Assembly (NCBI RefSeq): GCF_009727155.1
Contig: NZ_WNWM01000002.1
Location: forward strand, 620,001-684,000
Length of the DNA: 64,000 nucleotides
Origin: Pseudoduganella dura
GTDB lineage: Bacteria; Pseudomonadota; Gammaproteobacteria; Burkholderiales; Burkholderiaceae_D
Direction of reading: 5' to 3'
The position numbers and the translations under genes were made by a program. The notes beneath the pieces were generated by a model. It saw only the letters and a list, made by a program, of their open reading frames with translations. It was not told where the DNA came from and did not search any database. Below, in pieces: positions 32,511 through 42,326 of the stretch; the first letter of the stretch is position 1, and each line of letters opens with the position of its first letter.

Positions 32511-34214
32511 TTACGCCGAAAGCCGCCCGCCGGTTCTTACCGCCCTGGCGCTCCCGCGCAGGCGGAAGCTGCCGACGGCCTGCGACAGGCCGGCCGCCTG
32601 TTCGCGCAGGCTTTCGGCCGCCGCCGCGGCCTGTTCGACCAGCGCCGCGTTCTGCTGGGTGATCGAATCCATCATGCTGACGGCGCGGTTGACTTCGCCG
32701 ATGCCGGTGCTCTGCTCGGCACTGGCGCTGGTGATGCCGGCCATGATGCCTTCGAGCTGGCGCACCGCCTGGACCACCTGGTTCATCGTCTTGCCCGCCT
32801 CGTCGGCCATGCGCGCGCCCTGCTCCACCGTGCCGGCCGAATCGCCGATCAGTTCCTTGATTTCACGCGCCGCCGCCGCGCTGCGCTGCGCCAGGTTGCG
32901 CACCTCGGATGCCACCACGGCAAAGCCGCGCCCCTGTTCGCCGGCGCGCGCCGCTTCCACGGCGGCATTGAGCGCCAGGATATTGGTCTGGAAAGCGATG
33001 CCGTCGATCACGCTGGTGATGTTGCCGATGCGGGTCGAGCTTTCGCGGATCGCGCCCATGGTGCCGACCACCTTCGCCACCACGTCGCCGCCCTGCGCGG
33101 CGATCGACGAGGCGTTCGCCGCCAGCCGGTTCGCCTCGCCCGCGTCGCTGGCATTGCGCTGCACGGTCTGGGTCAGCGTTTCCATCGTGCTGGCGGTCTG
33201 CTGCAGGGAACTGGCCTGCGATTCGGTGCGCTCCGACAGGTCGGCATTGCCGCGCGCGATCTCGCCGGTGGCCACCGCCATCTCGTCGGTGCTCGTATGG
33301 ATCTTGCCGATCATGCCGGCCAGGTTGCCGTTGATGGTGGCGATGGCGCGCATCAGGATGCCCACCTCGTCGTCGCGGCCCGCCCCGAACTCTTCGGTCA
33401 GGTCGCCCTGCGCGATCCTGGCGGCGGACGCGGTGGCGCTGGCGAGGTTGCGCCGGATATACCGGTACACCAGCAGCAGGCACAGCACGGTGCCGCCCAC
33501 GGACATTGCCAGCAGCGCCACCGCCAGCGCGAAGGCGGCGCGCGTCTCCCCTTCGGCCCGTGCCACCGATGCCGCCGTGCGGGCATCGAGCATGGCGAGG
33601 AATTCGTTCAGCGGCTGCATGATGCGGGCCTTGTTTCGGTGGTACGCGGCGTCGTGCATGATGCGGCGCGCCATCTCCGGGTCCGGCGCATCCTTGCGGG
33701 TGAAATTGCCGTTGCCGTCGTCGAACAGGCCCTTGACGGCGTTCATCGCGATCACTTCGGTCTTCACCAGGCCATCGGAATTGGCCTGCGCCTCCTTCAG
33801 CTTGGCGAATTCCCCTTCGGTGAAGCCGGCCTGCTTCATCAGCTCCTGCAACGCGACCGACCGGCCCGACGATGGCGGCACGGGCAGGCCGCCGGCCACG
33901 AAGTCCCAGTAGATGCGTCCGTAGTTTTCCGGCCGCGGCTTGGCGCCGTTGCGGATATCGAGGATATCCATGTACTGCCGTTCATACGTCGCTTCGCCGG
34001 AGACCACGTAGGTGCGGGCCAGCCGCGTCAGGTCGTCGGAACTTTGCCGCAGTTCGTCGGCCAGCAGGTACGACTGGTAACGCCCCTGGCTGGCCGCCGT
34101 GGCGGCGGCCTGCTTGTCCGATACGCGCAGCAGCGCCCACAGGGTGAGCGCCGCCAGCAGCAGCGCGAGGAGGAACGTGGCAATAAAGGCTTGCTTGATA
34201 GACAGATGACGCAT
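32511..34214 (-). CDS. methyl-accepting chemotaxis protein
   Basis: 567 aa. N-terminal membrane helix, periplasmic four-helix-type sensor (about 35-190), second helix (190-215), HAMP, then a signalling domain with the conserved hairpin tip [20 protein letters not shown] and methylation helices. No C-terminal NWETF-like pentapeptide, so it relies on other receptors for CheR/CheB docking. Ligand unknown. The gap to the M48 gene (32340-32510) shows nothing else. Confidence 0.94.
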
Positions 34215-34372
34215 GACAGGCTCGCTGAAGCTGATGGTACGTGATACCCATCGTCAACGGTAACGTCATCGATGAAAGCATGTCCAGCGAATGCTGGCGA
34301 AGCGTGCCATTGCGATATGGGATTGTCGGATGTGGTGTACACAGTTGGCAAGGCGGCATGGACTGTCAGGCA

Positions 34373-34387
34373 ATAGTGCGGCACTAT
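34373..34387. promoter_or_regulatory. 15-bp dyad upstream of the TIR-SIR2 gene
   Basis: ATAGTG-CGG-CACTAT, exact arms around three bases, ending 47 bases before the TIR-SIR2 start. It is placed like an operator overlapping the promoter. The rest of the 220-base gap (34215-34434) carries no gene. Confidence 0.4.
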
Positions 34388-34434
34388 CACTTATACGCCG
34401 CAGTCCTCCGTTATTAGCCGATATAGGATGCGTA

Positions 34435-35778
34435 ATGAAAGTCTTCCTCAGTTACAGCAAGGGCGACAAGCGGGTCGTCGATGACATCGCGGCTACGCTG
34501 CAATCGTTCGGTCACGACGTCGAAGACTCGGGATTGAACCGTGAACCACGCGACAAGCCATTGCTGGAAGCTGTTGATTCGGCTGATGCGGTCATTCCCG
34601 TCATCAGCGAGCATGCATTCCGTTCAAAGCGCGTGCAAAATGAATTTTCCGTCATCGCGCTTGCCCGTGCCACGGGGAAGCGCGATCAGGCGATCGTGCC
34701 GATCGTTCTGGACAAGTCACCTATCCCGAATTACTTCACAGAGTGGCAGGCGATCGATTTTTCGTCGAGCGTCGAGCAGTCGTTGAAGCGCCTGAAAGAC
34801 GCCTTGACGCCGGATGGATCGGAAGATGCCGGAAATGTCACAACGGCATCGGCGGAAGTTGCTACCAAGGCCGATGAGCACAGCAAACAGGTCGAGACTT
34901 TGCGTCGCGCCTTGCGCGCGGGCGCGTTGACCTTGATGTGCGGCGCCGGTACGTCCGTTGCTGCCGGCATACCGGTCTGGAACGCACTGCTGCTGAAGCT
35001 ACTGGGCTCGATGATGCAGCGCCTGTCGAAGGATCATGCGATCGCTCTGACGGAACACGCGGCACAGGAGTTCCTGTCGCGCACCGATGCTTCGGCGCTA
35101 ATCCTGGGCAAATACCTGAAAACCAACCTCGGCGGGGATTTCACGTCGGAAGTAAGAGACGTCCTGTATTCCACCAGCCCGGCAGGTTCACCGCTCATTG
35201 ACAGCATCGTCGAACTTGCCCGCCCCCAGCGCGACAGTCGTGCGCTGGACTCGATCATCACCTTCAATTTCGATGCATTATTCGAAGAAAATCTGACACG
35301 CAATAATATCAACAACAAGTCGATTTTTTCCGAGGCGATCAAGCATGAATCGTGCGAGCTGCCGATTTATCATGTCCACGGTTTCCTCCCACGCAAAGGG
35401 CCGGTCGATACAGCGGGCCTTGTATTCAGCGAAGACGCATATCATAGTCAGTTCATCGACCCGTTCAGCTGGTCGAATCTTATCCAGCTCAACAAACTGA
35501 CACAGAACACCTGCCTGTTCGTCGGCATCAGCCTCACGGACCCGAACATGCGTCGTCTGCTGGATGTCGCCTGGCGCAAGAACGCCGAAAAAACGCTGCC
35601 GCATTTCATCATCAAGCTGGCTCCAAGGCAGCATTCCGCACTCGACCAACGCATCCTTCGCATCCTCGAGGAACAGGATGCCAACGGGCTGGGCCTGAAC
35701 GTCATCTGGATCAATGACTACACGGAGATCCCGGGCTTGCTGCTCCAGATTGCCGCCCGTACGGGCATTGCCGCCTAG
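34435..35778 (+). CDS. TIR-SIR2 fusion protein, putative anti-phage NADase
   Basis: 447 aa, starting at ATG 34435 (AGGA seven bases upstream). Residues 1-125 form a TIR domain: VFLSYSKGDK, the SADAVIPVISEHAF strand-loop and QNEF, whose Glu70 sits where TIR NADases have their catalytic Glu. Residues 155-415 form a SIR2 domain of the defence type: MCGAGTSVAAGIPVW (NAD loop, 168-182), ITFNFDALFEE (Asn278), HVHGFLP (catalytic His315) and LFVGISLTDPNMRRLLD. In type I Thoeris these two activities are on separate proteins (ThsB makes a signal; ThsA, SIR2-SLOG, depletes NAD). Here they are fused and no SLOG domain is evident. The gene stands alone between housekeeping genes. Function is inferred from domains. 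Confidence 0.85.
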   Translation: MKVFLSYSKGDKRVVDDIAATLQSFGHDVEDSGLNREPRDKPLLEAVDSADAVIPVISEHAFRSKRVQNEFSVIALARATGKRDQAIVPIVLDKSPIPNYFTEWQAIDFSSSVEQSLKRLKDALTPDGSEDAGNVTTASAEVATKADEHSKQVETLRRALRAGALTLMCGAGTSVAAGIPVWNALLLKLLGSMMQRLSKDHAIALTEHAAQEFLSRTDASALILGKYLKTNLGGDFTSEVRDVLYSTSPAGSPLIDSIVELARPQRDSRALDSIITFNFDALFEENLTRNNINNKSIFSEAIKHESCELPIYHVHGFLPRKGPVDTAGLVFSEDAYHSQFIDPFSWSNLIQLNKLTQNTCLFVGISLTDPNMRRLLDVAWRKNAEKTLPHFIIKLAPRQHSALDQRILRILEEQDANGLGLNVIWINDYTEIPGLLLQIAARTGIAA

Positions 35779-35935
35779 TGTGGTGAATCATAAATTCGTT
35801 GATTAATAAATTTGACGAAATCGTCTCAAGACAAGGCGGAAATGTACGGTAAGGCCGGGGCCTTTCCGTGCATTTTCAACGCAGTATTGGGGCGATTCTC
35901 GTCGGATTTATTCAACGAATTTGTGATTCGGCACA
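35779..35935. mobile_element. 157-bp palindromic MITE-like element
   Basis: The terminal 24 bases are inverted repeats with three mismatches (TGTG at both outer ends, ATTCGTTGA at the inner end of each arm); pairing continues inward with gaps. A second inner stem (AAATGTACGG..AAGGCC with GGCCTTTCCGTGCATTT) makes nearly the whole element a hairpin. CTAG flanks both sides (35775-35778, 35936-35939), a four-base duplication like that of IS5-group elements. No transposase. The left CTAG contains the TAG stop of the TIR-SIR2 gene. Confidence 0.7.
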
Positions 35936-36010
35936 CTAGTGCCTCTGCGATTTGTATGTACACGATGCGTGCGTAGAAGGCCAGCGCGTTGCCCGTTGTT
36001 AGGCCGATCA

Positions 36011-36121
36011 TCGCCAGTACCGGAACCGGACGCCGTGTCCATGCTGCTGGCGGGGCTGGCCGTGGTGGTCGCTGCCGCGCGGCGGCGCGGCCGCCGGTAT
36101 CGGCCCGCCCTGCCCGGCTGA
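36011..36121 (+). pseudogene. PEP-CTERM gene remnant (sorting tail only)
   Basis: The frame reads SSPVPEPDAVSMLLAGL then a hydrophobic run and ARRRGRR before the stop: a PEP-CTERM sorting signal (VPEP motif, helix, basic tail). The rest of the protein is missing; upstream lies only the MITE and the TIR-SIR2 gene. This is the leftover 3' end of an exosortase substrate gene, cut off by the insertion events to its left. It converges on the glycosyltransferase gene. Confidence 0.65.
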
Positions 36122-36122
36122 T

Positions 36123-37181
36123 TCAGGCTGCCAGGCATTCCCGGTACACCGCGAGATACGACGCCGCGGCCTTTTCCCACGTGAAGCGCAGCGCATGCGC
36201 GCGCGCCCGCCGGGCCCCGTCCTCGCCGGCGAAGCGTGCCAGCCCGGCGCCAAGCACTTCGCCCATGTGGTCCGGGTCGAAGTTGTCGAAGTAGCAGGCC
36301 GCATCGCCGCCCACCTCCGGCAGGCTGGTGAAGCGCGACAGGAACACCGGGCGGCCGTGGTGCATCGCCTCGATCGCCGGCAGGCCGAAGCCTTCGGCGA
36401 GCGAGGGAAACAGGAACGCCTCGCAGTGCGCGTAATACCAGTCCCGGTCGGCCTGGCTGACCGGGCCGGTCACCGCGACCTGGCCGGAGACGCCATGGCG
36501 CGCCGCCTCGTCCAGGATTTTTTGCCGGTAGTCCTCCTTGATCACGCCGGCGATGACCAGCGTGTAGTCGGTCTTGCGCAGCAACGGCACCAGCACATGG
36601 AAGTTCTTCTTCGGGCAGACCATCCCGACCGTGAACAGGAATGGGCCCGGCGGCACGAAGCGCGGCTGGTGACCGGCGGGCGCATGACCCGCATCGACCC
36701 CGTTGTAGATGACCGACACCTTGTCGCCGGCTTCCGGAAAGTGGCGCAGGATGTCCGCCTTGACGAATTCCGAAATCGCCACCACGCGGTCGACGCCGGC
36801 GATCCGCCTGGCCATCCTGCGCAGGTACTTCGCGAGCTTCCGGCTGCCCGCCGGCTGTTCATGCACCTGGTTCAGGTCGTGCACCGTCATCACCTTCGCG
36901 GCGCGCACCCGCTCCGGGCCGAAGCGGCAATACTGGTCGGCGAAGTGGACTACGTCGAAACGGGCGTTGCGCGGGAAGTACCAGCGGTGATGCTTGCGGT
37001 GGCGCACATAGGATGCCTGCCCGCCCAGGAAACCGTCCTGCGCCGGATAGACGTAGGCGCTCAGGTCGAAACTGCCCTGCCCCTGCTTTACCAGTTGCTG
37101 CCCAAGGCTCCTGCCGAAGGTATGCAGACCGGTGTTTGCATGGCGCATCGAGTCGAGGGTGATCAGCAGCCCCGGTGTCAT
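36123..37181 (-). CDS. GT4-family glycosyltransferase
   Basis: 352 aa. The family-4 glycosyltransferase core is clear: TVGMVCPKKNFHVLV (nucleotide-sugar region) and AFLFPSLAEGFGLPAIEAMHHG with the EGFGLP motif (ExFGxxxxE). It transfers a sugar from a nucleotide donor, probably in LPS or capsule assembly. The ATG at 37181 overlaps the stop of the GT9 gene (ATGA), so both are coupled. Acceptor unknown. Confidence 0.9.
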   Translation of the reverse strand: MTPGLLITLDSMRHANTGLHTFGRSLGQQLVKQGQGSFDLSAYVYPAQDGFLGGQASYVRHRKHHRWYFPRNARFDVVHFADQYCRFGPERVRAAKVMTVHDLNQVHEQPAGSRKLAKYLRRMARRIAGVDRVVAISEFVKADILRHFPEAGDKVSVIYNGVDAGHAPAGHQPRFVPPGPFLFTVGMVCPKKNFHVLVPLLRKTDYTLVIAGVIKEDYRQKILDEAARHGVSGQVAVTGPVSQADRDWYYAHCEAFLFPSLAEGFGLPAIEAMHHGRPVFLSRFTSLPEVGGDAACYFDNFDPDHMGEVLGAGLARFAGEDGARRARAHALRFTWEKAAASYLAVYRECLAA

Positions 37182-38227
37182 CGGCGCACTTCCATGATGC
37201 CGCTGCCGGCGTTGCCGGCCGCCGCGCGGCCGCGCCAGGCGAATACCGCCTCCGCGACCTGGCCGGCGCTGATCGCCTGCATGCAGGCGCAATCCTGCGC
37301 ACCGGTGCAGCTGTCGCACGCCCGTTCGGCGCTCAGCGAAGCGGCATTCGTGCCGAGCGCCCCCCAGCGCGTGATGTCGATCGGCTGGATCGGCGGGAAC
37401 AGGCCAAGCGTGTTGCGTCCCAGCGCGGCCGAAATGTGCAGCGGCCCGGTGCCGCTCGCGATCAGCCCGTCCGCCGTGCCGATCATCGATACGAGCCCGC
37501 GCAGGTCGCAGCGGCCGCACAGGTTGCGCACGTTCGGGCTGGCCAGCAGTGCCGCGCCATCGCGGGCGAGCAGTTCGCCCTCGGCACGGCTGCCGGTGAG
37601 CCAGATCGCGATGCCGGGATCGGCGCGCAGCATCGCGGCGAGTTCCGCATAGCGCTCCAGCGGCCATTCGCGGCCATTGCCGTTGGACTTTGGATGCAGG
37701 ATCAGGTTGAAGGGCGCGGCGCCGAACAGGTCATCGGTTTCGGGCAGGCGCGGCGCATGCAAGCCGTACAAGGGGCTGATTTCCGCCAGGCTCGGCACAT
37801 GATCGATCCCGAGCGGCTTCAACAATGCGAAGTTGAGCTGGGCTTCGTGCAGGCGCGAGCGCACCCGGCTGAAGTGTGCCAGGCGATTGCAGGTGAACCA
37901 GTGGTACACGCGGTGGCTGCTGCCCACGCGGTTGGGAACGTTGGCGCGCCGCGCCGCGCGGCTCAGGGCACGATCCGGGAACGCAAAGATGACGGTGTCG
38001 TAATTCTCGTCCTTCAGCAACTGGTCGAAGTCCAGCGTTTCCACCGCAAGCGCCCGGTCGATGAAGCGGCAGCAGGCAACCACCGGCGCGGCATAGCCGC
38101 GGCACAGCATGTCGATCTTCACGCCGGGAATCAACTGCTTGAGATACCCTGCCAGCGGCAGAGTCAGCACGACGTCGCCTATATTATCGGTGCGACAAAT
38201 GAGAATACGTGACAGGGCGGGAGGCAT
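37178..38227 (-). CDS. GT9-family (heptosyltransferase-like) glycosyltransferase
   Basis: 349 aa, ADP-heptose:LPS heptosyltransferase family. LICRTDNIGDVVLTLPLAGYLK is the N-terminal GT9 motif; LILHPKSNGNGREWPLERYAEL and GLIASGTGPLHISAALG form the donor site; a Cys cluster (CDSCTGAQDCACM) lies near the C-terminus. First gene of a two-gene leftward unit for envelope glycans. Confidence 0.9.
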   Translation of the reverse strand: MPPALSRILICRTDNIGDVVLTLPLAGYLKQLIPGVKIDMLCRGYAAPVVACCRFIDRALAVETLDFDQLLKDENYDTVIFAFPDRALSRAARRANVPNRVGSSHRVYHWFTCNRLAHFSRVRSRLHEAQLNFALLKPLGIDHVPSLAEISPLYGLHAPRLPETDDLFGAAPFNLILHPKSNGNGREWPLERYAELAAMLRADPGIAIWLTGSRAEGELLARDGAALLASPNVRNLCGRCDLRGLVSMIGTADGLIASGTGPLHISAALGRNTLGLFPPIQPIDITRWGALGTNAASLSAERACDSCTGAQDCACMQAISAGQVAEAVFAWRGRAAAGNAGSGIMEVRR

Positions 38228-38801
38228 TACCGGAATTTTGAAATATCTTTTTGGCGTTCGTTAAAATGGCGGGGCACCCATGCGAACGGTTCGGGCCTGG
38301 TTCGGGCTGATAAAGCGTTCCGTACCTGGGCCGGAAAGCGGTGGTTAATATATCGCTTTTGAGATGTATTCGCCACAAATACTCAAAGGCAATAACAATT
38401 CGTGGCCTTCGCGGCGTGGGCATGACCACGATGCCGGGCATTCTCCCGTGGACAACGCTGGCCGGCGCCCGGCTCCGGCCACCACGCAGGCGATAGCGGA
38501 TACCCTGGCCCGCGGCGGAATCGGCGGCTGCCATCGCGTTGCCCGTCGTTTCGTACCGTTTCGTATCGTTTCGTGCAGTGTCGTTTCGCGCCATCCAGTG
38601 CTGTTTCGTTTCGTTCCGTGACTATATACGCAAAGCCGGCGCGCCTGTCGCAGACCAGGCCGTCATTTTACCCGGCCTTACCGCCTTTTACGCCGGGCCG
38701 CGGACGAAAAGATTCTGCCACACATATATGACGCGGCCATTTCGCCTGCAGCGTTCCGGCGCCATTCGCCAGGCGGCTGGCTCCGCGGATTGCACGGCCG
38801 G
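38228..38801. other. 574-base intergenic region upstream of the glycosyltransferases
   Basis: No convincing gene. It holds the promoter for the leftward glycosyltransferase pair (AT-rich stretch around 38340-38400) and the phased GTTTCG repeats at 38548-38622. Short open frames across it are driven by the repeat and have no family likeness. Confidence 0.5.
38548..38622. repeat. phased GTTTCG(T) short repeats
   Basis: Units GTTTCGTACC, GTTTCGTATC, GTTTCGTGCA, GTTTCGCGCC, GTTTCGTTTC and GTTCCGTGAC start at 38548, 38558, 38568, 38583, 38603 and 38613. Steps of 10, 10, 15, 20 and 10 bases put most copies on one face of the helix. It may be a cooperative protein-binding array or a slippage product. 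Confidence 0.6.
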
Positions 38802-40412
38802 TCACCGCTCACCCTCCGCGACCGGCGTGCCGGCGGGACTCGCGTCGGTGGCGGCCATCGCGGCGAGCGCCGCCACGACATCGTCGCGGTGCTGGGGCTT
38901 GCCGAACATCCAGCCTTGCGCCAGCTGGACACCGCGCTCGCGCAGGTAGTCGGCCTGGGCCAACGTCTCGATGCCTTCGGCAACCATCGCCAGCTCCATC
39001 GCGGTCGCCATCGCGATGATATGGCCGACCACCTGGTTGGTCGGGGCGCAGGTGCCGATCGCCTCGATGAACGAGCGGTCGATCTTCAGGAAATCGACCC
39101 GCAACGACTCCAGGTACGAAAGCCCGGCATAACCGGTGCCGAAATCGTCGATGGCGACGCCGATACCGCGCTCGCGCAGCGCGCCGATGACCGGTTGCGC
39201 CGCCCCGAGGTCGAGGGTGCCCCGCTCGGTGATCTCGACGATCAGGTTGGCGGCCTTGACGCTGCCGCGCGCGAACATCGCGTCGAACAGGCCGACGATC
39301 GCGTCGGAATGGAGGTCGCTCGGCGAGAGGTTCAGCGCCACATGGAATGCCGGGCGTATCGCCAGGAAGTGCCGCATGTCCTGCTCCACCAGCTGCAGTA
39401 CCCGTTCGGTCAACCGGGCGATGGTACCCGTCTGCTCGGCGATCGGGATGAACAGGTCGGGGCCGATCAGTTCCCCGGTGGCCCGCCGCCACCGCAGCAG
39501 CGCCTCGACCCCGACCCAGCAGCCAGATCGCAGGTCCACGACAGGCTGGTACAGCAGGAAGAACTCGTCATGGCGCAAGGCTGCGCGCAGCGCGGCGGCC
39601 AGCGACGCCTGGCGCCGCACCAGCAGCAGCATCGCGGCCGCCATGCCTGCGCCGGCGACCACGCCGGCGGGAACCAGCCGCAACGCGATCGCATCGCGCC
39701 GCGCCCGCACATCGGCAAGCGGCAGGGCCGCCACGCCCGCGGTCGGGGTGCTCGCCGAGCGCACCATGGCAACGAGGTACGGCCCGTCGGCGAACGTGGC
39801 TTGTTCCCGGCTGCCCAGGCGCGCCACCCAGGCCCGGTCGATAAAACCCCTTGCCATCGTGATCGGCTCGTCCGGACGGCGCTCGACATGCAGCACGGCC
39901 AGCGACATGCCGGCGCCGGCACTGCCGCCATCGAGCGGCAGGTCGCTGTGGAACAGCACGGCAAAGCCGTCGCGTTCGATCGCCATCAATGGACTGGTGC
40001 TTCTATCGTCGAAGGGGATGCGCGAGTAGATCAGCAGCCCGTTCGATGCCCGGAGCGTGTGGGTACCCAGCGAAAAGGCGCCGGCACCCAGGGAAGAGCA
40101 CCGCATTACGCCGTCGCGCACGTGGCCGATCGCCTTGATGTAGGTCGAGGTCAGGATGACGCGGCGCATCTGTCCCTGCGCCGCGGCGGAACAGGGTTCG
40201 CCGTTGAAACGGGCCAGCTGGCGCATGCCGGCCAGCGACTGCTGCACCAGTTCGTCCGACCTGCGCAGCATCGCCCGCGCGTAGCCCAGGGCCGATCCGG
40301 CCTGTTCCAGCCAGGCCTGGCGCTGCGCTTCCCGCCACGCCAGCCATGGCGGTGCCAGCAACGCGACCACCGCGGCGAGCAGCGCGCATGCGAACATGAA
40401 CCGTCTGGTCAT
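38802..40412 (-). CDS. CSS-motif EAL-domain c-di-GMP phosphodiesterase
   Basis: 536 aa. Two membrane helices (6-26 and about 240-260) enclose a periplasmic CSS-motif sensor with Cys in NGEPCSAAA and in VMRCSSLG; in E. coli PdeC-type enzymes these cysteines link to redox state. The cytoplasmic EAL domain (about 275-530) keeps VEALLRWRR, the LNLSPSDL Asn, VEITERG, AIDDFGTGYAGLSYL and FLKIDRSFI, so it should hydrolyse c-di-GMP. The start is placed at 40412 (GGGACAGG upstream). A paralogue lies divergently 318 bases away. Confidence 0.92.
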   Translation of the reverse strand: MTRRFMFACALLAAVVALLAPPWLAWREAQRQAWLEQAGSALGYARAMLRRSDELVQQSLAGMRQLARFNGEPCSAAAQGQMRRVILTSTYIKAIGHVRDGVMRCSSLGAGAFSLGTHTLRASNGLLIYSRIPFDDRSTSPLMAIERDGFAVLFHSDLPLDGGSAGAGMSLAVLHVERRPDEPITMARGFIDRAWVARLGSREQATFADGPYLVAMVRSASTPTAGVAALPLADVRARRDAIALRLVPAGVVAGAGMAAAMLLLVRRQASLAAALRAALRHDEFFLLYQPVVDLRSGCWVGVEALLRWRRATGELIGPDLFIPIAEQTGTIARLTERVLQLVEQDMRHFLAIRPAFHVALNLSPSDLHSDAIVGLFDAMFARGSVKAANLIVEITERGTLDLGAAQPVIGALRERGIGVAIDDFGTGYAGLSYLESLRVDFLKIDRSFIEAIGTCAPTNQVVGHIIAMATAMELAMVAEGIETLAQADYLRERGVQLAQGWMFGKPQHRDDVVAALAAMAATDASPAGTPVAEGER

Positions 40413-40435
40413 CCTGTCCCGATATCGAATGTTGT

Positions 40436-40450
40436 TGGCACGTCCCTTGC
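40436..40450 (+). promoter_or_regulatory. sigma-54 (-24/-12) promoter
   Basis: TTGGCACGTCCCTTGC starting at 40435 matches the RpoN consensus TGGCACG-N4-TTGC, with GG and GC exactly ten bases apart. It points right, toward the CSS-EAL gene at 40731, giving a leader of about 270 bases. The remainder of this 318-base divergent gap (40413-40730) holds no gene I can see. Confidence 0.6.
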
Positions 40451-40730
40451 GACTGAATACGCAGTATAAGACCGCAGCGTTTGCCGGGCCGCGCGGGACC
40501 GGCGCCACGGGTGCGGCCGCCGGCAGCGATGACGGCGCAATGCGTGATTCCCGTACTGCAGGACAATGCGGCCGTCGGCAGATTGCCGGAGGAAACTTTC
40601 ACAAGCCCGGGTAACGGCGCCACATTTCATTCGGACAGGCACGGTTTTTAACAGGGACGCGATCCGGCAGGCGTAGACTTGCACATGACAAGTTCCAATA
40701 CGTTCGCCAACCTGTCGCCGTGAGGAATCG

Positions 40731-42326
40731 ATGAAGAACCGCGTCATGCTGGCCTGTGCGTCGCTTGCGATGATCGCCGCGGTCGGCGTGCCGCCCTGGC
40801 TGGCATGGGGCGAGGCGAAACGGCAGGCCTACCATGCCGAAGCGGATCTTGCGCTCGGCTATGCGCGCGACCTGCTGCGGCGCAGCGACGAGACGGCCCG
40901 CCAGGCGCTCAGCGGCGCGGAGCAGTTGTCGCGCTCCGGCTTCCCGCCCTGCTCCCCGGCGTCCCAGGCGCTGATGCGCAAGATCGACCTGACCTCGACC
41001 TATATCCAGGCGATCGGCCATGTCCGCGACGGCAAGCTGGCCTGCTCGTCGATGAGCGACGACGCGGCATCGCTGGGAACGCGCTCGTTCCGCTCTTCGA
41101 CGGGCGTCATCTTCCACACCGGCGTGCCGTTGGGAGACGATACCGCCAGTCCGCTGGTCGGCATACAGAGCGGCGCGTTCGTTGCGCTGTTCCACCGCGA
41201 GCTACCGCTGGATACGTGGACGGCGGTGCCGGACGTCTCGCTGGCCGTGATGCACCTGGAAATGCGCCTGGACGAAGCGCCGGTGGCGCATCGCGGCCAT
41301 GTCGACCGCCGGTGGCTCGCGGCGCTGGGCACCCGGCGCGCGGTCACCTTCTTCACCGACAGCCACCTGGTCGCCGTGGTGCGCTCGCAGCCGTACTTGA
41401 CCGCCGCGGTCGCGGCAGTACCAGTTTCCTACCTGCACCAGCGGACGCGCAGCGTGGCGCTGCGCCTGGTACCCGCCGGCATGCTGGCCGAGCTCGCGCT
41501 GGCCGCGGCGATCGTGCTCCTTGCCCGCCAGCAGATGTCGCTGGGCAGCGCCTTGCGCCAGGGTCTGCGAAACGATGAATTCTTTCTCGCCTATCAGCCC
41601 ATCATCAATCTGAAGACCGGCCGCTGGGTGGGCGCGGAAGCCCTGCTGCGCTGGCGCAGGGCGAACGGCGAACTGATCGGGCCGGACCTGTTCATTCCCG
41701 TCGCGGAACAGACCGGAACGATCGGCAAGCTGACCGAACGCGTGCTGGAACTCGTCCATCGCGATGTCGGCGACTTTCTCGCCAACCATCCCACGTTCCA
41801 CATCGCCCTGAACGTGTCGGCATCGGACCTGAGCTCGCCGGCCATCCTGGCGCGCCTCGATCACTTGCTGGCCAGCACCGGTGCCCGGCCGTCGAACCTG
41901 CTCGTGGAAGTCACGGAGCGGGCGCTGCTGGACCTGGCGTCCGCAAAGCCCGTCATTGCCGCGCTGCGGGCAAGCGGCATCGAAGTGGCGGTCGACGATT
42001 TCGGTACCGGCTATTCCGGCCTGTCCTACCTGGAATCGCTCGATCTCGACCTGCTGAAAATCGACCGCTCCTTCATCGAAGCGATCGGCACCCAGGCGCC
42101 GACCAACCAGGTGGTCCAGCACATCATCGGCATGGCACGCACCATGGGGCTGCGCATGATCGCGGAAGGTGTCGAAGCCGATGCCCAGGCAGCCTACCTG
42201 GCCGAAAGCAACGTGCAGTACGCACAGGGCTGGCTATTTGCAAAAGCCATGCCCTGGCGCGAGCTGCGCACGGCGCTCGACCGGCATGCCGTGGGCCAGC
42301 TCCGTGCGGCGGCGAACATGCGCTGA
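40731..42326 (+). CDS. CSS-motif EAL-domain c-di-GMP phosphodiesterase (paralogue)
   Basis: 531 aa, same build as the divergent neighbour: N-terminal helix, periplasmic CSS domain (FPPCSPASQ and LACSSMSDD), second helix near 245-265, EAL domain with AEALLRWRR, LNVSASDL, VEVTERALL, VDDFGTGYSGLSYLESL and LLKIDRSFI. Catalytic residues look complete. TGAGGAATCG precedes the ATG. Likely controlled from the sigma-54 site upstream. Together the pair looks like a diverged duplication. Confidence 0.93.
   Translation: MKNRVMLACASLAMIAAVGVPPWLAWGEAKRQAYHAEADLALGYARDLLRRSDETARQALSGAEQLSRSGFPPCSPASQALMRKIDLTSTYIQAIGHVRDGKLACSSMSDDAASLGTRSFRSSTGVIFHTGVPLGDDTASPLVGIQSGAFVALFHRELPLDTWTAVPDVSLAVMHLEMRLDEAPVAHRGHVDRRWLAALGTRRAVTFFTDSHLVAVVRSQPYLTAAVAAVPVSYLHQRTRSVALRLVPAGMLAELALAAAIVLLARQQMSLGSALRQGLRNDEFFLAYQPIINLKTGRWVGAEALLRWRRANGELIGPDLFIPVAEQTGTIGKLTERVLELVHRDVGDFLANHPTFHIALNVSASDLSSPAILARLDHLLASTGARPSNLLVEVTERALLDLASAKPVIAALRASGIEVAVDDFGTGYSGLSYLESLDLDLLKIDRSFIEAIGTQAPTNQVVQHIIGMARTMGLRMIAEGVEADAQAAYLAESNVQYAQGWLFAKAMPWRELRTALDRHAVGQLRAAANMR

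Follow-up and report, generated by a model that had tools for sequence, protein, structure and literature searches.

The window analysed here is a stretch of 64,000 nucleotides from the genome of Pseudoduganella dura (contig NZ_WNWM01000002.1). At 34435-35778 it encodes a protein in which an N-terminal TIR domain is joined to a C-terminal SIR2 domain. A first-pass annotation, made from the sequence alone, had described the gene as a single-chain TIR-SIR2 fusion of defence type, and the fusion is confirmed. The protein is most likely a variant of the SIR2 NADase defence proteins, which unites receptor and effector in one chain. The gene and its parts are:

34435-35778, plus strand: TIR-SIR2 fusion gene, an uninterrupted open frame of 447 amino acids plus stop codon, supported by Pfam and by 15 colinear full-length relatives
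34441-34794, plus strand: TIR domain (residues 3-120, Pfam) with Glu70 kept, Arg66 in place of the Trp of the WxxxE motif, and the GDN segment absent
34810-34890, plus strand: variable linker (about residues 126-152), without invariant columns and of low model confidence
34891-35775, plus strand: SIR2_2 NADase-type domain (about residues 153-447) with Asn278, His315, a GAGTS motif and the near-invariant segment SEDAYHSQFIDPFSWSNLIQLN at residues 332-353

Both domains are recognised by Pfam above the gathering cut-offs, TIR_2 (PF13676) at residues 3-120 with 57.5 bits (cut-off 28) and SIR2_2 (PF13289) at residues 273-398 with 60.3 bits (cut-off 24.5). The first-pass annotation had named these two profiles and a structure prediction as checks, and the predicted model recovers both folds, agreeing with the SIR2 folds of ThsA, KomC and DSR2 and with the TIR fold of SPARTA. 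Its mean pLDDT (predicted local distance difference test) is 76, with values below 50 at residues 34-40, 128-145 and 330-343. None of the 29 columns of the family alignment at residues 126-154 of the linker is invariant. The top PADLOC matches are partial, ThsA models coming first and Dsr1 next, and no NCBIfam model scored above its cut-off. An in-frame ATG is also present upstream, at 34291, but 34435 was taken as the start since the relatives begin at the residue encoded there.

The three residues singled out earlier, Glu70, Asn278 and His315, are found at these positions in the translation. In the SIR2 half, alignment places Asn278 at the Asn of the TNYD motif in ThsA and KomC, and His315 at residue 146 of KomC, which is changed in PDB entry 9xvc (H146N). 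The SIR2 catalytic residues are therefore present as claimed, and both are unchanged in all 18 distinct full-length proteins of the family. This set omits L003, which is nearly a copy of L002, L013, nearly a copy of L012, and L019 (the same gene as L008); L016, L017 and L023, which match without a TIR part, were counted apart, and L021, L022, L024, L025 and L026 do not enter the residue counts. In each of the 153 pairs of proteins the identity is lower in the TIR than in the SIR2 half (averages of 34.1% and 55.8%). The near-invariant segment at 332-353 overlaps residues 330-343, which have among the lowest model confidence and are possibly a mobile loop used in activation. Given the computed fold and residues, we infer that the C-terminal domain is a SIR2 NADase of the ThsA/KomC/DSR2 type.

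The TIR half presents a different picture. Glu70 occupies the column of the WxxxE glutamate in the family alignment, and the placement of the motif is supported by the TIR domain of a typical member, which aligns there with AbTIR and other bacterial TIR structures. The Trp of the motif, however, is lost in seven of the 18 proteins (Arg66 in the window protein, R in L008, L in L015, S in L020, P in L055, T in L056 and Y in L057), and the Glu in two (Q in L008, K in L057). A G[DE]N motif in the BB-loop region, read by eye from the table, is present in 13 of 18; the five without it are the window protein, L008 and the phage proteins L055, L056 and L057 described below. The first-pass annotation did not mention the Trp and GDN losses of the window protein; its view of Glu70 as a catalytic residue holds for the position, whereas full catalysis finds no support. 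According to excerpts of PMC10937652 and PMC11374754, a Trp mutant of AbTir has lower NADase activity and forms less cyclic product. Together with the excerpt of PMC11374754, the replacement of Trp66 by Arg speaks against cyclisation. These residue patterns make it look as if some members of the family can do without TIR catalysis, the window protein probably among them; its own TIR domain is probably non-catalytic or weakly catalytic and hence would not be a messenger synthase.

Relatives of the fusion protein are not confined to one phylum. A scan of genome contigs revealed 17 loci, 15 of them colinear over both domains (39-55% identity) and two with the SIR2 part only, from Planctomycetota, Pseudomonadota, Thermodesulfobacteriota, Bacteroidota, Chlorobium, Armatimonadota and Bacillota. 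One relative, L004, lies on a Pseudomonas contig. Judged by its sequences this is a widespread TIR-SIR2 family and not an accidental fusion. Within the bacterial family to which the window's genome belongs, matches occur in five of 294 genomes and are full length in three (the window's own, G166 and G081); a draw from the class gave matches in two of 369 genomes, namely the window's genome and one with a partial match. Ammoniphilus contains the SIR2 core as a stand-alone protein of 319 residues, with no TIR frame in the examined stretch, while L017 begins near a contig end, so that the missing TIR part is unsure there. Protein matches were found in 17 plasmid records, none of which spans 80% of the fusion protein, and no plasmid record matched at the DNA level.

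Three further SIR2 proteins came up alongside. A Klebsiella plasmid protein (L023 7425-8939) has the same SIR2 core behind an N-terminal part of about 180 residues without Pfam match. A Lysinibacillus plasmid relative (L024 7935-8969) has matches spread over several frames, so the gene looks broken. A further candidate for a SIR2 defence gene, the second in the window's own genome, is an open frame of 942 residues at C2:932162-932788 (L038), which gave a ThsA-type SIR2 match with E 1.3e-39.

With the family alignment as query, viral contigs yielded three full-length relatives, L055, L056 and L057. In these phage copies the gene lies downstream of a CI-like repressor gene (phrog_4) on the same strand; the two are adjacent listed genes in L056 and L057, and one 159-residue open reading frame separates them in L055. 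In L056 and L057 PHROGs matches also point to a CII-like regulator besides a replication nickase; L055 has an endolysin match. The TIR halves of the three are the most divergent among the 18 proteins, and none of the three stretches showed a further TIR frame. No additional relatives came out of two more viral scans, and a collection of phage records contained a single record with a distant, partial SIR2 match. The gene arrangement resembles that of 186/P2-like prophages. Phages of this kind are known to carry defence cargo, as stated in part of PMC9122126. The wide distribution of the family and its presence on phage contigs strengthen the earlier idea of a defence-type fusion.

We also compared the protein with the known SIR2 and TIR defence systems. 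In Thoeris, TIR and SIR2 communicate through a small messenger; in type I this is a cyclic ADP-ribose product of the TIR protein, which activates the effector. By sequence the fusion protein shares the SIR2 catalytic Asn and His with ThsA (SIR2-SLOG) of type I Thoeris. ThsA, however, has a C-terminal SLOG (STALD) domain and no N-terminal TIR domain, whereas the chain of the fusion protein ends with SIR2. No SLOG match was found in Pfam, in line with the first-pass annotation, and the ThsA model of 478 positions matches only up to position 277. Type I Thoeris also has an adjacent, separate ThsB TIR gene, while no other TIR frame (E 0.01) was found in the window at 24001-46000. With neither a SLOG part nor a second TIR frame there, the label Thoeris-like does not hold in the sense of membership; by the tests made, the protein is not a Thoeris member. 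KomC, the SIR2 NADase of the KomBC complex, aligns to the SIR2 part over nearly its whole chain of 264 residues and lacks a TIR domain. DSR1 and DSR2 consist of SIR2 followed by a large C-terminal sensor, whereas SIR2 is C-terminal in the fusion protein; DSR2 chains have about 1000 residues and Dsr1 models more than 1200 positions, and a large part of them has no counterpart in the 447 residues (NCBIfam Dsr1 scores 19.6 bits against a cut-off of 1400). Unlike the TIR-APAZ protein of SPARTA, the protein has SIR2 in the place of APAZ; TIR and SIR2 fill the chain, which thus lacks the APAZ domain of SPARTA and SPARSA, and the Aga_TIR models of PADLOC match residues 48-155 only.

The wording 'TIR and SIR2' occurs in the literature, e.g. 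in the available text of PMC10952713, and a sirtuin tree in PMC12700824 (Extended Data Fig. 2 legend) gives TIR among the additional domains in the same protein as SIR2_2, as a tree label without function, for proteins that may or may not belong to the present family. No paper using TIR-SIR2 or SIR2-TIR as a compound name was found in a literature of partial coverage, which does not imply absence from print.

The G+C content of the gene is 0.566 compared to 0.666 for the window, in accordance with the lower value noticed earlier; about 1% of stretches of 1344 bp are as low, and all of these overlap the gene. Because of this low G+C content and the sporadic occurrence, the gene was presumably acquired by horizontal transfer. 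The dyad operator proposed upstream was not borne out: 178 of 300 shuffles contained a palindrome at least as good as the best one there, at 34372-34388, the repeat search reported no inverted pair at this site, and the sole promoter-like site in 34150-36150 is on the minus strand. The adjacent mobile element could be specified as a repeated element:

35775-35939, no strand assigned: miniature inverted-repeat transposable element (MITE)-like element of 165 bp with inverted ends of 32 nt and CTAG at both ends

It occurs at seven places in the genome including the window copy (84-100% identity), and three of the seven copies, among them the window copy, show the strict end pattern at both ends. 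The TAG stop codon of TIR-SIR2 falls within the left CTAG; the element thus sits just where the gene ends and does not alter the protein.

Searching 74 genomes of the genus with the right flank gave some match in 66, mostly partial. The glycosyltransferase region (window about 36128-38250) is full length in six other genomes, and none of these six loci shows window sequence to the left of it; in three of five longer stretches weak matches to the chemotaxis gene (71-74%) lie on the other side. Neither a clean empty site nor exact insertion boundaries emerged from this search, and the sole direct repeat in 34200-36100 is one weak pair of 14 nt.

By reading of the open reading frames, the window copy stands by itself, with a chemotaxis-receptor gene on one side and glycosyltransferase genes on the other. 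That the gene stands alone, as annotated before, is true for this window but not in general. At locus L036 (4746-12470), from genome G166 of the same genus, the TIR-SIR2 gene is found together with an integrase, AlpA, four ThsB-model genes (PADLOC), a SLOG cluster 3 gene and a PDC-M50A gene, the last directly before it; a SLOG-type ThsA was not seen in this stretch. Gabija gajA and gajB matches lie about 2.2 kb downstream of TIR-SIR2 in L012. In L015 a TmtA match adjoins it and a TIR gene with AlbA domain follows further along. Among the PADLOC matches listed (1e-10; 25 of 66 families, member not named) for 58 neighbours, drawn from 15 other loci or gene positions, are a CBASS cyclase, ThsB/PDC-S66, PD-T4-6, mad3/mad6 and Aga_REase, each in one member; PD-T4-6 and other kinase-like models may lack specificity. 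On this listing most neighbours are not recognised defence genes. Further along the window, two divergent similar genes at 38802-40508 (minus strand) and 40731-42326 (plus strand) were read by eye as paralogous EAL-type signalling proteins.

The computations yielded two domain folds, intact SIR2 residues, an altered TIR motif, a lasting fusion and carriage by phages. We lean towards a single-gene anti-phage abortive-infection protein, in which the TIR domain as sensing and assembly module drives the SIR2 NADase. The fast-evolving N-terminal TIR domain would meet a phage component, on which the TIR domains may cluster; the clustered TIR domains might in turn drive the SIR2 domains into an active assembly, which would destroy NAD+ and lead to abortive infection. 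The clustering and assembly steps have parallels: excerpts of PMC12578639 describe ThsB1 as joining a complex with a phage capsid protein, its catalytic mutants keeping immunity, SpbK is activated by clustering on the portal protein (PMC12847820, in part), and filament formation appears to be needed for the activity of ThsA, Avs5 and FAM118 (PMC12700824, in part). The earlier suggestion that sensing is coupled to killing without a diffusible signal gains support as a deduction.

Several points weigh against this interpretation. The TIR clustering step is drawn from analogy, and neighbour frames read by eye beside the window copy include no defence gene. Eleven of the 18 proteins keep the Trp and an intact WxxxE, so that TIR catalysis may be of importance for the majority of members; Glu70 is retained in the window protein, so some TIR NADase activity is possible, and according to part of PMC11374754 the equivalent Trp mutant of TcpC remains active. 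On the best tree, loss of the Trp takes four changes (bootstrap 3-5); four of 18 inner branches, however, are well supported and these alone require just one, which makes the number of independent losses uncertain. The three phage TIR halves are on average about 23-24% identical to the rest, so that single columns are less sure. Two neighbourhoods, finally, fit a multi-gene system: in L011 (Halomonas) TIR-SIR2 is directly preceded on the same strand by a coiled-coil TIR gene, which stops 21 bp short of it, and in L036 the closest ThsB gene lies one gene further upstream.

In such a multi-gene system, which we regard as rather unlikely, separate ThsB-like TIR sensors would bring in TIR-SIR2 or signal to it, by contacts between TIR domains or by a messenger, and the window copy would be an orphan or work with a distant TIR gene. 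One other TIR_2 match does exist in the window's genome, about 4.2 Mb along the contig, and the only other ThsA-model match in G166 is a 1200-residue frame on another contig. Other TIR genes, however, were found in only four of 17 genomic full-length loci (L001, L011, L015, L036), some of the examined stretches being short, and none turned up in the three phage stretches.

Less probable still is a one-chain Thoeris with both halves as enzymes, the fused TIR domain sensing the phage and making from NAD+ an ADP-ribose product that acts locally on SIR2. The conserved Glu70, the intact motif in most members and the alignment of a typical member with AbTIR would suit it, but no SLOG or other known messenger-binding domain was found in the chain, Trp66 is replaced by Arg, and the two proteins without the Glu keep their SIR2 residues. 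It is highly improbable that the protein processes NAD for regulation or metabolism, or that the gene is decaying. The lack of a visible defence gene beside the window copy, the diverging TIR half and the MITE-like element at the stop codon could be quoted for this, but the frame is intact, the SIR2 half is strongly constrained across phyla, and phage position and sporadic occurrence speak against it.

Returning to the abortive-infection protein, we tentatively suggest for the family that the TIR domain became, perhaps repeatedly, a non-catalytic receptor fused to a SIR2 NADase without a messenger, the SIR2 core being found elsewhere with other or no N-terminal modules, and that 186/P2-type prophages may use it as a superinfection weapon.

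Both TIR and SIR2 are common immune domains that consume NAD. Here they are fused without a messenger receptor, with the TIR motif naturally lost in some members and the SIR2 motif kept in all 18, which makes the TIR domain as a pure SIR2 receptor directly testable; the natural members without the Glu, L008 and L057, are ready-made test material. Toll-like-receptor responses are reported to need FAM118B, a human protein related to this SIR2 group, as described in part of PMC12700824, and a TIR-SIR2 link may on that account be of wider interest. If the proposal is true, these proteins would represent a bacterial TIR-to-sirtuin wiring that works without a messenger.
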